DNA from: Pseudomonadota bacterium
GTDB taxonomy: Bacteria > Pseudomonadota > Gammaproteobacteria > Burkholderiales > SG8-39
NCBI GenBank assembly: GCA_021813275.1
Contig: JAKALD010000006.1
Coordinates: 1-33,255 of the forward strand
Direction: 5' to 3'
Length of the DNA stretch: 33,255 nt
Made by a program: the position numbers and the translations under genes. Under the pieces are notes generated by a model. It did no database searches, was not told where the DNA came from, and saw only the letters and a program-made list of their open reading frames with translations. This document shows, piece by piece, positions 9,087 through 22,615 of the stretch (positions are counted from its first letter, which is position 1; each line of letters begins with the position of its first letter).

Positions 9087-10481
9087 ATGCCAAAAAAGCT
9101 TGCCAGCGACCTCAAGACCCGCCTGGAGTCCGAGATCCGTCGGCATCCGGGGGGCGCGGGCCCCGGCACTCTCGTTCGCGCGTTCGCCAAAGACGCGAGC
9201 GCGCGGTCCTTGGGGCGGCTGCTCAAACACCTGGAGCGTCGAGGGCGCATCCGCAGGCAAGGCAAAGGGCCGGCAACCCGCTATTTCTCTGGCGCCCCCG
9301 CGGAGGGCATAGCTCAAGCGCCCCCTCCAGCGCCGCTCGCCCAAGGCGAGGCGGAAGTCCACGTTCCCATTACAGGGGAGTCGGAAATGCTCCGCGCCTG
9401 GGTCCGCCGCCCGATCACTCAGCGGCGCCCCGTCGGCTACGACCGCTCGCTGCTCGACAACTACCGGCCGAACGAAACGTTCTACCTGAACGACGCGGAC
9501 TGGCGCGCGCGTCTGCGCGAAATCGGGCGCACCCCGTTCACGCAGCGGCCGGCGGGCACCTACGCGCGCGACATCATGAACCGCCTGCTGATCGACCTGT
9601 CCTGGGCCTCCTCGCGGCTCGAGGGCAACTCCTACACGCGACTCGATACGCTCAATCTGATCGAGCACAGCCGCGAGGCGGATGGGAAGGACCGGCTCGA
9701 GACCCAGATGATCCTCAACCACAAACGGGCCATCGAGTTCCTGATCGAGCAGGCGGAAGACATCGGCTTCAACCTCTACACGTTCATGAACCTGCACGCC
9801 CTGCTCTCCGAGAACTTGCTGGCCGATCCGGCGGCGAGCGGCCGGCTGCGCGACAGGATCGTGGAGATCAGCGGCACGGTCTACCGCCCGCTCGCGATAC
9901 CACAGCAAATCGAGGAACTCTTCCGGGTCGTCCTGAAGAAAGGCGGCGCAATCCTCGATCCCTTCGAACAGGCATTCTTCCTGATGGTGCACATCCCTTA
10001 CCTGCAGCCGTTCGAGGACGTGAACAAACGGGTTTCGCGGCTCGGGGCCAACATCCCGTTCATCAAGAACAATCTCTGCCCGCTTTCGTTCGTGGACGTC
10101 CCGGAGCGCGCCTACGTGGAAGGCACGCTCGCAATCTACGAGCATGCGCGCGTGGACTTGCTGCGCGATGTCTTCACGTGGGCTTACGAGCGCTCATGCG
10201 AGCAGTTCAAGGCCGTAGCCGGGACGCTGCCTGAGCCGGACCCGTTTCGGCTCAAGTATCGCGCGGAGCTGGGCGAGGTCGTCGGAGAGCTGGTGCGCCA
10301 AGGCGTCGCAGTCGATGCGGCCGCTGTCCGCCTCGCAGCTACGCAGCTCGTTCCCACGGAAGACATACCGCGCTTCGTGAAGATGGCGCTCACCGACCTA
10401 CGCCACCTGCACGAAGGGAACATCGCGCGCTACCGGATACGCCTCGCCGAATATCGCGCCTGGAAGGCGCGCCAGCGGTAA
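9087..10481 (+). CDS. Fic/DOC-family protein with N-terminal winged-helix-like domain and non-canonical catalytic motif
   Basis: A 464-residue protein. Residues 1-68 look like a winged helix (GTLVRAFAKDASARSLGRLLKHLERRGRI...TRYF). A Fic N-terminal domain follows with an inhibitory-helix motif S175-x3-E179-G180 (SSRLEG), marking a self-inhibited class. The Fic core is QPFEDVNKRVSR at 307-318, where active AMP-transferases have HPFxxGN(G/K)RxxR. The catalytic histidine is glutamine and the first glycine is valine. Fic enzymes transfer AMP or other phosphate-containing groups to proteins; without the histidine, AMPylation is doubtful, and it may act differently or as a regulator. The gene opposes pgk and pyk and has its own AT-rich promoter, consistent with insertion. 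There is no adjacent FicA-like antitoxin. The Shine-Dalgarno is weak. Confidence 0.88.
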   Translation: MPKKLASDLKTRLESEIRRHPGGAGPGTLVRAFAKDASARSLGRLLKHLERRGRIRRQGKGPATRYFSGAPAEGIAQAPPPAPLAQGEAEVHVPITGESEMLRAWVRRPITQRRPVGYDRSLLDNYRPNETFYLNDADWRARLREIGRTPFTQRPAGTYARDIMNRLLIDLSWASSRLEGNSYTRLDTLNLIEHSREADGKDRLETQMILNHKRAIEFLIEQAEDIGFNLYTFMNLHALLSENLLADPAASGRLRDRIVEISGTVYRPLAIPQQIEELFRVVLKKGGAILDPFEQAFFLMVHIPYLQPFEDVNKRVSRLGANIPFIKNNLCPLSFVDVPERAYVEGTLAIYEHARVDLLRDVFTWAYERSCEQFKAVAGTLPEPDPFRLKYRAELGEVVGELVRQGVAVDAAAVRLAATQLVPTEDIPRFVKMALTDLRHLHEGNIARYRIRLAEYRAWKARQR

Positions 10482-10508: not shown

Positions 10509-11672
10509 TCATCCGGCGGCCCGCGCCTCGAGCGCCGCGACCGCCGGCAGGGTCTTGCCCTCGAGGAACTCGAGGAACGCGCCGCCCGCGGTGGAGATGT
10601 AGCTCACCTTGTCGGCGATGCCGAACTTGTTGATCGCCGCCACCGTGTCCCCGCCGCCCGCGATCGAGAAGGCCTTCGATTCGGCGATCGCCATGGCGAT
10701 CGCCCGGGTGCCCGCGGCGAACGGCTCGCGCTCGAACATCCCCACCGGGCCGTTCCAGACGATCGTTCCGGCGAGCTTGAGCGCCGCCGCGAGCGCGCCG
10801 GCCGTCTTCGGGCCGACGTCGAGGATCATCTCGTCATCGGCCACCGCGTTCGCGGGCTTCGTCACGCCCTTGGTGTCCTCGAGGCTCTTCGCCACCACCA
10901 CGTCGACCGGCAGCGGCACCTTGGTCGCGGCCATGATCCGCTTCGCCTCGGCCACGAGGTTCGGCTCGGCGAGCGATTTGCCGATCTTCATTCCCGCGGC
11001 CAGCATGAAGGTGTTGGCGATGCCGCCGCCCACGATCAGCTGGTCGACCTTCTTCGCGAGCTCGCCGAGGATGGTGAGCTTGGTCGAGACCTTCGAGCCG
11101 GCGACGATCGCGACGAGCGGCCGCGCGGGGCTCGCGAGCGCCTTCGAGAGCGCGTCGAGCTCGGCGGCCATCAGCGGCCCGGCGCAGGCCACCGGCGCGA
11201 AGCGCGCCACGCCGTGAGTGGTCGCTTCGGCGCGATGCGCGGTGCCGAAGGCATCGTTCACGTAGACGTCGCACAGCGCCGCGATCTTCCGGGCGAGCGC
11301 CTCGTCGTCCTTCTTCTCGCCCTTGTTCACGCGGCAGTTCTCGAGCAGCACCAGCTCGCCGGGCTTCACCTCGACCCCGCCGGTCCAGCTCGCCCTGACC
11401 GGCACCGTGCGGCCGAGCAGCTCGCCCAGGCGCTTCGCGACCGGCGCGAGCGAGTCCTCGGGCTTGAATTCGCCCTCGGTGGGGCGGCCGAGGTGCGAGG
11501 TCACCATGACCGCCGCGCCCTGCTCGAGCGCGCGCCGGATCCCCGGCACCGAGGCGCGGATGCGCGTGTCGTCGGACACCGCGCCCGCGTCGTCGAACGG
11601 CACGTTCAGGTCGGCGCGGATCAGGACCCGCTTGCCGCGCAGGTCCAAGTCGGTCATGCGCTTGAACCGCAC
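10509..11672 (-). CDS. pgk: Phosphoglycerate kinase
   Basis: A 387-residue cytosolic enzyme interconverting 3-phosphoglycerate and 1,3-bisphosphoglycerate, serving both glycolysis and the Calvin cycle (cbbK role here). Recognisable parts are the N-terminal substrate site [20 protein letters not shown], and the C-terminal nucleotide-binding [12 protein letters not shown]. The GTG at 11672 ([11 protein letters not shown]) is preferred over ATG 11657. It reproduces the five residues that precede MTDLDL in E. coli Pgk, gives the same total length (387), and has GAGG seven bases upstream. The start is 4 bases beyond the gap stop codon, so gap and pgk are co-transcribed. Confidence 0.97.
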
Positions 11673-11676
11673 GACG

Positions 11677-12690
11677 CTACCTCGCGTTCATGAGCGCAAC
11701 CGCCGCATCCAGCATCCGGTTGCTGAAGCCCCATTCGTTGTCGTACCACGAGGTGACCTTCACGAGCGTGCCGCCGGTCACCTTGGTGAGCGTCGAATCG
11801 AAGATCGAGCTCGCGGGATTGTGGTTGAAGTCGGAGGACACCAGCGGATCCTTGTTGTACTCCAGGATGCCCTTCAGGTCGGTCTGCGCGGCCTGCTTCA
11901 CCGCCTCGTTCACTTCCTCGACGCTTGTGGCCTTCTTCGCCACGAAGGTCAGGTCGACGATCGAGACGTTGATCGTCGGCACGCGGATCGCGAAGCCGTC
12001 GAGCTTGCCGTTCAGGTGCGGCAGCACGAGGCCCACCGCCGCCGCCGCTCCGGTCTTGGTCGGGATCATATTCTGCGAGGCCGAGCGCGCGCGCCGCAGG
12101 TCCTTGTGGTAGACGTCGGTGAGCACCTGGTCGTTGGTGTAGGAGTGCACCGTCGTCATCAGCCCCTCGACCACGCCGATGCGGTCGTCGAGCGCCTTGA
12201 CCAGCGGCGCGAGGCAGTTGGTCGTGCACGAGGCGTTCGAGATCACGGTGTCCGAGCCCTTCAACGCCTTGTCGTTGACGCCGACGACGATGGCGCGGTC
12301 GACGTCCTTCTCGCCCGGCGCCGAGATGATCACCTTCTTCGCCCCGCCCGCGAGGTGCGCGCCCGCCTTCGCCTTGCTGGTGAACAGGCCCGTGCACTCG
12401 AGCACCACGTCCACCCCGAGCGCCCTCCAGGGCAGCTTCGCCGGGTCGCGCTCGGCGAGCACCTTGAGCCGGTCGCCGTTCACGACCAGCGCGTCCTCCG
12501 CGACCTCGACGCTGCCCTTGAACCGGCCGTGCGCCGTGTCGTACTTGAGCAGATGCGCGTTGGTCTTGGCGTCGCCCAGGTCGTTCAACGCGACGAACTG
12601 CAGGTCGTGCTTCTTGCCGTCCTCGTAATGCGCGCGCAGCACGTTGCGGCCGATGCGGCCGAACCCGTTAATCGCTACCTTGATGGCCAT
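11677..12690 (-). CDS. gap: Glyceraldehyde-3-phosphate dehydrogenase, type I
   Basis: A 337-residue cytosolic dehydrogenase for glyceraldehyde-3-phosphate and 1,3-bisphosphoglycerate (cbbG role in carbon fixation). NAD-binding GFGRIGRN lies at residues 9-16, the catalytic Cys155 is in SNASCTTNC, and the catalytic histidine is in [10 protein letters not shown]. The C-terminal [13 protein letters not shown] is standard. Start ATG 12690 is preceded by GGAGAGGGA. The 104-base gap upstream contains an FNR/Anr-type box at 12774-12787, so gap-pgk may be transcribed separately from the cbb genes. Complete and normal in all visible features. Confidence 0.97.
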
Positions 12691-12773
12691 AGTCCCTCTC
12701 CACGACAAATCGATCCGCCGGCCGGCGCCGGCCGCCGGACCTCGCATCGTCCAACGGCCCGCCGCCCCCCTGT

Positions 12774-12787
12774 TTGATCTAGATCAT
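12774..12787. promoter_or_regulatory. Candidate FNR/Anr/Dnr-type operator upstream of gap
   Basis: TTGATCTAGATCAT matches the FNR consensus TTGAT-N4-ATCAA in nine of ten positions. Its centre (12780/12781) would place an activated start about 41 bases away, near 12739, leaving a leader of about 49 bases before gap. This is the geometry of a class II activator site. It lies immediately after the cbbT stop codon. Confidence 0.5.
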
Positions 12788-12794
12788 CCCCGTA

Positions 12795-14840
12795 CTACAG
12801 CACGCCGCGCACCGCGGCCGCCACGTGCTCGGGCGTGAAGCCGAAATGCTTGAACAGCTCCGGCGCGGGCGCCGACTCGCCGAAGCGGTCGATGCCGACC
12901 ACCGCGCCTTCCAGCCCCACGTACTTGCGCCAGAAGGCGGTCACGCCGGCCTCGACCGCGACGCGCGGCACGCCGCGCGGCAGCACCGCGTCGCGGTACG
13001 CCGCGTCCTGGCGGTCGAAGACGCTGGTCGAGGGCATCGACACGACGCGCGTCGCGACGCCTTCGGCCGCGAGCAGCTTCTGCGCCGCGAGCGCGAGCGG
13101 CACTTCCGAGCCGGTGGCGATCAGCACCGCGCGCGGCGCGCCCTCGGCTTCGGCGAGCACGTAGCCGCCGCGCTCCACGCTCGCGAGCATCGCCGCGTCG
13201 CGCTTCGCGAAGGGCAGGTTCTGGCGCGACAGCAGCAGCGCGGTCGGGCCGCTCTTGCGCTTCAACGCCGCGCCCCAGGCCGCCGCGCTCTCGACCGTGT
13301 CGCACGGCCGCCACACGTCCATGTTCGGAATCAGGCGCAGCGTCGCCGCGTGCTCGATCGGCTGGTGCGTCGGCCCGTCCTCGCCCAGCCCGATCGAGTC
13401 ATGCGTGAACACGTAGATCGCGCGCGCGCCAATGAGCGCCGCCATGCGCAGGGCGTTCCGCGCGTAGTCGGAGAACACCAGGAAGGTCCCGCCGTAGGGA
13501 ATGAAGCCGCCGTGCAGCGCGAGGCCGTTCATGATGGCGCACATGCCGAACTCGCGCACGCCGTAGAACAGGTAGTTGCCGCCGTCCGCGCGGCCGATGA
13601 CCTTCGAGCTCTTCACCATGGTGAGGTTGGAGCCGGTGAGGTCGGCCGAGCCGCCAAGCAGCTCGGGCAGCGCGGGCTTGAGCGTCTCGAGCACGTTCTG
13701 CGAGGCCTTGCGCGTGGCGACGGTCTCGGCCTTGCCGTTCAGCTCGCCGATCAGCGCTGCGAGGCGCGCATCGAAATCCTGCGGCAGCTCGCCCGCCATG
13801 CGGCGCCGGAAGTCGCCCGCGAGCTCGGGATGCGCCTCCTCGTAGGCGGCGAACAGCTTGTTCCAGCGGCGCTCGGCGCGCTGGCCTGCGGGGCGCGCGT
13901 TCCAGGCGTCGTACACGTGCTGCGGGATCTGGAACGGCGGATACGGCCAGCCGATCGCCGCGCGCGTCGCCGCGATCTCGTCGGCCCCGAGCGGCGCGCC
14001 GTGCGCCGCACCGGTGTTCGCCTTGTGCGGCGCGCCCTTGGCGATCGTGGTCTTGCAGCAGATCAGCGTCGGGCGCGTGCCTTCGCGCGTCGCCTTGCGG
14101 ATCGCGCGGTCGACCGCCGCCACGTCGTGCCCGTCGACGTTCGGGATCACCTGCCAGCCGTAGCCCTTGAAGCGTTCGGCCACGTTGTCGGTGTACCACT
14201 GCTCGATGTGGCCCTTCTCGGAGTCGATCGAGATGCCGTTGTCGTCGTAGAAGGCGATCAGCTTGCCGAGGCCGAGCGTGCCGGCGAGCGAGCAGGCCTC
14301 GTGCGAGATGCCCTCCATCATGCAGCCGTCGCCCATGAACACGTACGTGTGATGGTCGACCACGTCGAACCCGGGCTGGTTGAAGTGCGTGGCGAGCAGC
14401 TTCTCGGCGATCGCCATGCCGACCGCGTTCGCGATGCCCTGGCCGAGCGGGCCGGTGGTGGTCTCCACGCCCGGCGTCACGCCGTGCTCGGGGTGGCCTG
14501 GCGTCTTCGAGCCCAGCTGCCGGAAGCGCTTCAGCTCGGCGATCGGCAGCTCGTAGCCGGTCAGGTGCAGCAGGCCGTACTGGAGCAGCGAGCCGTGGCC
14601 GTTCGACAGCAGGAAGCGGTCACGGTTCGGCCAGTGCGGATCGGCCGGGTTGTGGCGCAGGTGCTTGCTCCACAACGCCACCGCGATCTCTGCCATGCCC
14701 ATCGGCATGCCGGGGTGGCCCGAGTTCGCGGCCTGCACCGCGTCCATGGCGAGCGCGCGCAGCGCGTTCGCCATGTCGCGCTGCACGTCAGGCGCGGCTT
14801 GTACGGGGGAGGAAACGACAGGTGCGGGTGCGGTTTGCAT
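12795..14840 (-). CDS. cbbT: Transketolase
   Basis: A 681-residue thiamine-diphosphate enzyme that moves two-carbon units between sugar phosphates in the regenerative Calvin cycle and pentose phosphate pathway. The start region [23 protein letters not shown] is diagnostic. The ThDP/Mg motif is [19 protein letters not shown]...DDNG, followed by GPLGQG, the pyrimidine-domain [11 protein letters not shown], and [16 protein letters not shown]. An N-terminal extension of about 18 residues precedes the usual start. ATG 14840 lacks a good Shine-Dalgarno, so the internal ATG (MANALR) is an alternative. It follows cbbA after a 101-base gap with only a weak CAGCC/GGCTG dyad, so co-transcription is likely but not certain. 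Confidence 0.96.
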
Positions 14841-20121: not shown

Positions 20122-21624
<1,503 letters not shown>

Positions 21625-21641
21625 TTAACCCGCGGTTGTGA

Positions 21642-21664
21642 TAAGAACTACTTAAATGTTCTAA
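21642..21664. promoter_or_regulatory. Candidate CbbR binding region between cbbL and cbbR
   Basis: TTA-N7-TAA (21652-21664) fits the CbbR/LysR-type motif. An overlapping TAA-N7-TTA (21642-21654) shares its centre repeat. Together they form a dyad, AGAAC (21644-21648) and GTTCT (21658-21662) separated by nine bases. The site is about midway in the 115-base divergent promoter region, as usual for cbbR-cbbL pairs. Confidence 0.6.
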
Positions 21665-21703
21665 TCGAACCCATAACGTTTTCGAAATCAGCTCCCGCCC
21701 GGA

Positions 21704-22615
21704 ATGCAGCACGTGACCCTCAAGCAGCTGCGCATCTTCGAGACCGCGGCGCGCCACCTGCACTTCGGGCGCGCCGCGCGGGAAATGCATCTCACTCAGC
21801 CCGCGGTATCGATCCAGCTCAAGCAGCTCGAGGCGCACGTCGGCCTGCCGCTGTTCGAGCAGATGGGAAGGAACATGCATCTCACGCGCGCCGGCGAGGA
21901 GCTGCTGCGCCACAGCCGCATCGTGCTGCAGCAGCTGCGCGAGGCGGGCGCGGCGCTCGACGCGCTCAAGGGCACCGGCGGCGAGCTGCACATCGCGGTG
22001 ACGAGCACCGCGAAGTACTTCGCGCCGAAGGTGCTCGCCGAGTTCCGCCGCCGCCACCCCGAGGTGAAGGTGCGGCTCGCGGTGAGCAACCGCGAGGCGG
22101 TGGTGCGCGAGCTGGCGGAGAACACCGCCGACCTGGTGCTGATGGGGCGCGCGCCGCGCGGGCTGGACACCGAGGCGCACGCGTTCGCGCGCCACCCCCT
22201 CGCGATCATCGCCGCGCCCGAGCATCCGCTCGCGCACCGCCGGCGTATCGCGCTCGCGCAGCTCTCGGGCGATACCTTCCTCATCCGCGAGCGCGGCTCG
22301 GGCACCCGCACCGCCATGGAGCGCTTCTTCGCCGAGCACGGCTTCGAGCCGGCCGAGACCATCGAGATGAGCTCCAACGAGACCATCAAGCAGGCGGTGA
22401 TGGCGGGCATGGGCGTGAGCTTCTTGTCACTGCACACCGTCGGCCTGGAGCTCGCCGCCGGGCGGCTCGCGGTGCTGCGCGTGGCGGGCACTCCGGTGAT
22501 GCGCGAGTGGTTCGTGATCCATCGCGAGCGCAAGCGCCTCTCGCCGGCGGCGGCGGCCTTCAAGGCCTACCTGCTCGAGCGCGGCGCCGAGCTGATCGAG
22601 CGGGCGCTCGCCTGA
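21704..22615 (+). CDS. cbbR: CbbR, LysR-type regulator of the Calvin operon
   Basis: A 303-residue DNA-binding regulator. The N-terminal helix-turn-helix lies in residues about 18-37 ([20 protein letters not shown]), preceded by the typical [18 protein letters not shown]. The effector domain begins near residue 90 ([22 protein letters not shown]), and the [17 protein letters not shown] ligand-site helix is conserved in CbbR. Divergent placement next to cbbL is diagnostic. Family members respond to NADPH, RuBP or phosphoenolpyruvate; which applies here is not visible. ATG 21704 has only a weak Shine-Dalgarno. A 27-base gap separates it from nudC. Confidence 0.95.

Follow-up and report, generated by a model that had tools for sequence, protein, structure and literature searches.

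The window analysed here, a stretch of 33,255 nt, is contig C89 of a genome assembly of 3.67 Mb that is 94% complete; to judge by the nearest named relatives of its Gap, the genome is betaproteobacterial. Its minus strand carries a cbb operon in the order cbbL, cbbS, cbbX, cbbY, cbbF, cbbP, cbbA, cbbT, gap and pgk; a CbbR-like LysR gene diverges from cbbL (Table 1). NCBIfam models named the RuBisCO large subunit, the transketolase, the type I glyceraldehyde-3-phosphate dehydrogenase, a pgk-type protein and a CbbR-like protein; for the pgk product the match was to the kinase portion of a model for a bifunctional protein, with a score below the cut-off. The remaining cbb genes were named by reading their translations, and these names are consistent with the gene order in relatives. 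The cbbT stop codon ends at 12795 and the gap ATG starts at 12690, which places the box described below within the 104-nt spacer between the two genes. Further along, a 464-aa gene that looks Fic-like by eye lies at 9087-10481 on the opposite (plus) strand, between pgk and pyk.

Table 1. Coordinates of the features discussed, given as positions in the window
Feature	Position	Strand	Remarks
FNR/Anr/DNR-type box (candidate)	12774..12787	- (gap strand ATGATCTAGATCAA)	palindrome; the only mismatch is at an outer base of the promoter-distal half
cbbT-gap intergenic spacer, 104 nt	12691..12794	-	
candidate -10 element GACGAT	12746..12751	-	22 nt beyond the box; would span -12 to -7 with the box centre at -41.5
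predicted transcription start	12739	-	from class II geometry arithmetic only
gap, type I glyceraldehyde-3-phosphate dehydrogenase, 337 aa	11677..12690	-	sole gap found in the assembly
pgk, phosphoglycerate kinase	10509..11672	-	start codon as listed mechanically; sole copy found in the assembly
cbbT, transketolase	12795..14840	-	gene upstream of the box
cbbL, RuBisCO large subunit	20122..21588	-	first gene of the cbb operon
cbbR-like LysR regulator	21704..22615	+	divergent from cbbL; top model CbbR, at 310 bits below its cut-off of 450

A preliminary description of this DNA had claimed an FNR/Anr-type box, one base from the consensus, ahead of gap, and the observation is confirmed. Positions 12774-12787 read TTGATCTAGATCAT on the plus strand, which departs from the consensus TTGATNNNNATCAA at one of the ten specified bases, an outer position. 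The two TTGAT half-sites form an inverted repeat with a 4-nt gap, and the inner 12 bases of the box, TGATCTAGATCA, are a perfect palindrome. Shuffled sequences place the box above chance. Throughout the window 11 sites have two mismatches or fewer, against 2.09 expected, and this box alone has no more than one. Sixty shuffles of the whole window gave a mean of 0.07 sites with at most one mismatch and a maximum of 1, and 20,000 shuffles of the 104-nt spacer produced such a box in 0.06% of cases. Between cbbL and cbbR (21589-21703) there is no FNR box with up to two mismatches; the two-mismatch site nearest to that region, at 21809-21822, falls within the cbbR frame.

The preliminary description had proposed looking for further boxes in the genome, where a clear FNR-type regulon was found. 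The assembly contains 15 matches to TTGATN{0,14}ATCAA, and the gap is exactly 4 nt in 11 of them. When one mismatch is allowed, 75 sites have the 4-nt gap as against 7 with a 5-nt gap, an excess that is hardly explained by anything but selection for an FNR/DNR-type site. Exact boxes precede nosZ (TIGR04244, above cut-off) and a benzoyl-CoA-reductase-C-like gene (TIGR02263, 285 bits, below the cut-off of 421), the latter box lying at 1501-1514 of locus L130 on contig C155. The cytochrome cd1 (nirS) frame at C155:20663-22570 carries its one-mismatch box at 22469; the first in-frame ATG, a possible start, follows 43 nt later. A symmetrical site with two mismatches precedes ccoN, and one-mismatch boxes precede genes for a universal stress protein, a CBS-domain protein and a cation ATPase. 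The neighbours of further exact boxes have no evident link to anaerobic life, among them genes for a porin, an Hsp70-DnaJ protein and a MerR-type regulator. The narG locus of 5.2 kb, which begins inside the preceding narK-like gene, contains no box with two mismatches or fewer.

Several of these sites deserve a separate remark. The L130 box shares contig C155 with the nirS cluster; from the gene content of this contig, anaerobic aromatic degradation coupled to denitrification is possible. Another exact box (L136 on contig C264, 1501-1514) separates a XylR_N/sigma-54-type activator gene from a divergently oriented PRK08296-family gene. Two coding-like stretches, L253 (C165) and L196 at 1841 (C310, inside ccoN), share the one-mismatch box TTGATCGACATCAT, which is likely to be a codon-driven chance match there.

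In the 22 flanks of the 11 exact boxes, a TANNNT hexamer lies downstream three times at 21 nt and four times at 22 nt, and twice at other spacings between 8 and 59 nt. We examined 38 of the 64 one-mismatch sites (75 less the 11 exact ones), besides the window's own, and found TANNNT downstream nine times at 21 nt, twice at 22 nt and five times elsewhere (8-53 nt). Nine one-mismatch sites have the hexamer at 21-22 nt, all of them outside coding-like frames. As judged from sequence, this pairing of box and hexamer is the class II arrangement, in which the box would cover the -35 region and the -10 element would follow at a fixed distance. It provides a usable rule for the anaerobic regulon of uncultured family members: an FNR box, then 21-22 nt, then TANNNT.

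The hexamer was found at none of the 13 sites whose mismatch falls at bases 1-3 of a half and at 9 of the 25 with the mismatch at bases 4-5, these being small numbers. Fifth-base mismatches account for 22 sites, 17 of them T to C, and 8 of the 22 have the hexamer. None of the six sites with an outer (first-base) mismatch has TANNNT at 21-22 nt, and five of the six look coding. On these small numbers, the window's box appears weaker than typical sites of its own genome.

For gap itself, the box had been described as lying at class II activator distance from a start that would give a 49-base leader. Both statements stand as predictions: the same spacing of box to hexamer recurs in the own genome and in relatives, and the box centre (12780.5), set at -41.5, puts a hypothetical +1 at 12739 and leaves a leader of 49 nt before the gap ATG (12690-12688). 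The candidate -10 element is a weak hexamer that matches TATAAT at three of six positions; it keeps the A at -11 and the T at -7 and has lost the T at -12. We scored box and -10 element together with a composite model whose training set was 18 box-hexamer pairs from 16 sites of the own genome. The window's box obtains the top score of the window, 21.9, with the next place at 13.5; the best score across 30 random 33-kb sequences was 16.4. The score is directional, at 21.9 toward gap and 15.0 away from it. All 18 training pairs score higher (28.3-33.3), a comparison that is partly circular because the pairs were chosen for their TANNNT hexamer. A scan of 12500-13000 for a sigma-70 consensus promoter (a -35/-10 pair) and for terminators found none; a class II promoter would likewise show no such consensus.

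Two other candidate features around the predicted start were rejected. The 5′ end of the predicted leader holds a 13-bp inverted repeat, 92% complementary, with arms at 12714-12726 and 12727-12739. As a special feature this hairpin was discarded, since 26 of 200 shuffles fold as well as the 50-nt leader (-24.5 kcal/mol) and the fold is thus no more than base composition gives. The in-frame ATG upstream at 12747 was rejected as the start of gap because the alignments of most Gap relatives begin at residue 1 of the protein that starts at 12690.

The earlier reading of the box called for a regulator of the FNR/CRP family in the genome, and such regulators are present. HTH_Crp_2 has 19 matches in the assembly, of which 15 are above cut-off. 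Three full-length proteins of the FNR type (L006, L008, L011) have the CxxCx5C motif and a fourth cysteine, all aligned to those of the solved regulators 9qll and 9qlt. Against the NCBIfam Fnr cut-off of 228 bits, L006 (258.9) and L008 (232.7) lie above and L011 (183.9) lies below; L011 adjoins ccoN, and a fourth FNR type, L005, is truncated by a contig end. We take the four aligned cysteines, complete in three proteins, to be the cluster ligands. The genes narG, nirS, nosZ and ccoN were all found in the assembly, in support of the facultatively anaerobic, denitrifying lifestyle that the preliminary description had proposed. The recognition helix of FNR-type proteins reads the half-site; it is ETVSR in L006, L011 and L005 and ETVIR in L008 (C371). 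At least four FNR-type paralogues thus occur in one genome, and ETVIR is also found in the L013 protein, which is without the FNR cysteines. The replacement of ETVSR by ETVIR could mean a shifted half-site preference.

The same inventory bears on which protein would use the box. In place of an oxygen-sensing FNR, an NO-sensing protein of the CRP family, of the DNR/NnrR type, might bind it. Proteins of the CRP/FNR family without the FNR cysteines exist in the assembly, and L013 (C211) adjoins an nnrS gene; moreover, passages of PMC8510549 describe the FNR and DNR motifs as highly similar and not separable by sequence alone. Set against this are the box, in which nothing favours DNR, and the several true FNR-type proteins. 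Use by a DNR/NnrR-type protein is somewhat unlikely, and because it is a sub-case of our best explanation its probability is not added to that of the latter. Switching by oxygen (through FNR) and switching by NO (through DNR) are indistinguishable from the sequence of the box.

We searched 98 genomes of the family, the window's own included, and obtained a gap match in 86; the partial matches G019 and G037 were left out, which gave 84 loci. A transketolase gene (tkt) lies upstream of gap in all 84. The distance from the last transketolase codon to gap is at least 14 nt in 58 loci and at least 60 nt in 36, spacer lengths in relatives including the tkt stop codon. The gap starts of L108, L114, L172 and L193 are off by some codons, and none of these loci holds a counted box. 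A box with at most one mismatch is present in the tkt-gap spacer of 14 of the 84 loci, the window included, where shuffles expect 0.12 and where related genomes are not independent of each other.

These boxes are spread over several genera (designated g1, g2 and so on). At most one mismatch was found in 9 of the 11 genomes of g4, in 3/3 of g14, in 1/3 of g2 and in g1, which is the window itself, this genus being represented by the window genome alone among the 98 searched. The other two g4 genomes have boxes with two mismatches (TTGAC...CTCAA), and three of the four g13 genomes have a two-mismatch version followed by TATCRG at 22 nt. The boxes of g4 and g14 read TTGAT...CTCAA and so differ from that of the window; most begin 83-97 nt before gap, and two, in longer spacers, at 177-178 nt. 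Each boxed locus of g4, g14 and g2 has a -10 candidate at 21-23 nt, with the hexamers TACGGT, TACGGT and TAACAT in g14 and TAGACT in g2. Across the 11 g4 sequences most of the box is kept together with TGTATA 22 nt later (23 in one), and the intervening and flanking sequence varies. The nearest relatives by Gap, genera g19 and g20, are without the box: the g19 spacer measures 86 nt (stop codon counted), and in 12/12 loci of g20 the tkt stop and the gap start overlap or nearly so. Among named loci with a related gap (the best 80 of 589), many of which are other betaproteobacteria or gammaproteobacteria, none has a box with at most one mismatch and six have one with at most two.

Nine boxed loci of g2, g4 and g14 were inspected whole, and in six of them the box lies inside a cbb operon (G013, G014, G018 and G022 of g4; G048 and G050 of g14). 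The RuBisCO of these six differs from that of the window, with cbbL 56-57% and cbbS 33-40% identical and no match to cbbX. No other cbb genes were found upstream within about 9 kb in G047 (g14), within 7.6 kb in G002 (g2) or within the 4.5 kb available in G020 (g4).

A tree of 45 chosen Gap rows, in which 14 of the 42 inner branches are open and from which L216 (the gene of L102) and L020 (the gene of L101) were omitted, places the window beside g19 in a supported clade of 26 rows, the other 25 of which have no box. With the g13 row counted as boxless, the presence of the box needs at least four state changes. Either the predicted promoter is ancestral and was often lost or it arose more than once. 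The Gap-tree sister of the window, locus L102/L216 (G057, g19), has the same cbb order, including cbbX and cbbA, and no box; this locus is a natural comparison for expression.

This scattered distribution is one ground for reading the box as a relic, that is, as the decaying remnant of an ancestral gap promoter that is still used in g4, g14 and perhaps g2 and g13, with gap-pgk of the window now read mainly from the cbbL promoter or from other starts. The boxless clade around the window and the repeated state changes fit such decay, as do the loss of the spacer in many neighbours, the outer mismatch and the weak -10 hexamer. The perfect palindrome of the inner 12 bases does not, nor does a -10 candidate at exactly 22 nt, nor a composite score that exceeds the best of the random sequences. 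We consider a relic unlikely.

A chance match without function is less probable still. The 7 sites at the wrong 5-nt gap imply that chance may account for about one in ten of the 75, and five of the six outer-mismatch sites examined look coding; the frequency of such a box in the shuffled spacer speaks against chance, as does its recurrence in the same spacer and with the same geometry in other genera. Repression, in which an FNR-family protein over the -35 region would shut a constitutive gap promoter when oxygen is lacking, is very improbable: the box would overlap a -35 element, but no -35/-10 consensus pair was found at 12500-13000, and the spacing from box to -10 is the one that recurs in the own genome.

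We return to activation, a reading that genome context and comparison with relatives support, and consider it fairly probable that the box serves an activator of the FNR family at a class II promoter for gap-pgk within the operon. The site of the window is likely to be a modest class II FNR/DNR promoter, and that this copy is weak or decaying is a real possibility. For this promoter we infer binding, start site, activation and physiological reason. The trigger would be either the lack of oxygen, with FNR holding an intact [4Fe-4S] cluster, or NO, sensed by a DNR-type paralogue. An FNR-family dimer bound at -41.5 would then cover the -35 region and bring RNA polymerase to the -10 element at 12751-12746. 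The resulting transcript of gap-pgk would have a leader of about 49 nt.

Both gap and pgk are needed for the Calvin cycle as well as for gluconeogenesis or glycolysis. One copy of each was found in the assembly, whose completeness of 94% means that a second copy of either was possibly missed, and these single copies would be one reason to have an internal promoter. Under CbbR control alone, expression of gap and pgk would be bound to CO2 fixation, and facultative autotrophs that keep their single gap and pgk in such an operon must express both when CO2 fixation is off. An internal promoter of the FNR-family type would be a simple answer to this problem. Under FNR/DNR control, gap-pgk could be expressed in anaerobic, nitrate-respiring growth, and the sole copies would serve gluconeogenesis or glycolysis during denitrification while CbbR keeps the rest of the cbb operon off. 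More tentatively, several lineages of one betaproteobacterial family may keep an oxygen- or NO-controlled class II promoter inside cbb operons that have two very different RuBisCO types. Such a promoter would split the genes of autotrophy alone, cbbL to cbbT, from the dual-use pair gap-pgk, and would make the sole gap and pgk usable in denitrification with CO2 fixation off.

In its gene order, cbbL...cbbT-gap-pgk with a divergent cbbR, the locus resembles other CbbR-controlled cbb operons. The titles and abstracts of open-access papers surveyed, whose coverage is partial and whose silence is weak evidence, mention no FNR-type internal promoter and no FNR site at gap in a cbb operon, and a search of an FNR-regulon paper (PMC2908626) found nothing relevant to gap or glycolysis. 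An FNR-family box at gap is already known from Pseudomonas and is therefore not new: passages of PMC6588701 report, by computation, that 26 of 28 species have an Anr box at either gap or edd. The likeness lies in the FNR-family box TTGATNNNNATCAA before gap; however, the Pseudomonas gap is discussed there together with Entner-Doudoroff genes, whereas the gap of the window stands inside a cbb operon of a betaproteobacterium, between cbbT and pgk. The predicted geometry has a counterpart in the PN promoter of the Azoarcus bzd operon, where, according to passages of PMC6678401, the activator AcpR was found by experiment to bind at -41.5, overlapping the -35 box. An oxygen-controlled activator of the FNR family and a centre at -41.5 are what the two would share, by experiment at PN and by prediction at the window's gap, but PN governs the anaerobic breakdown of benzoate and is additionally subject to a repressor, BzdR (PMC6678401). 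New relative to the titles and abstracts surveyed is the position of such a box inside cbb operons, which recurs across several genera of the family whose RuBisCO operons differ.
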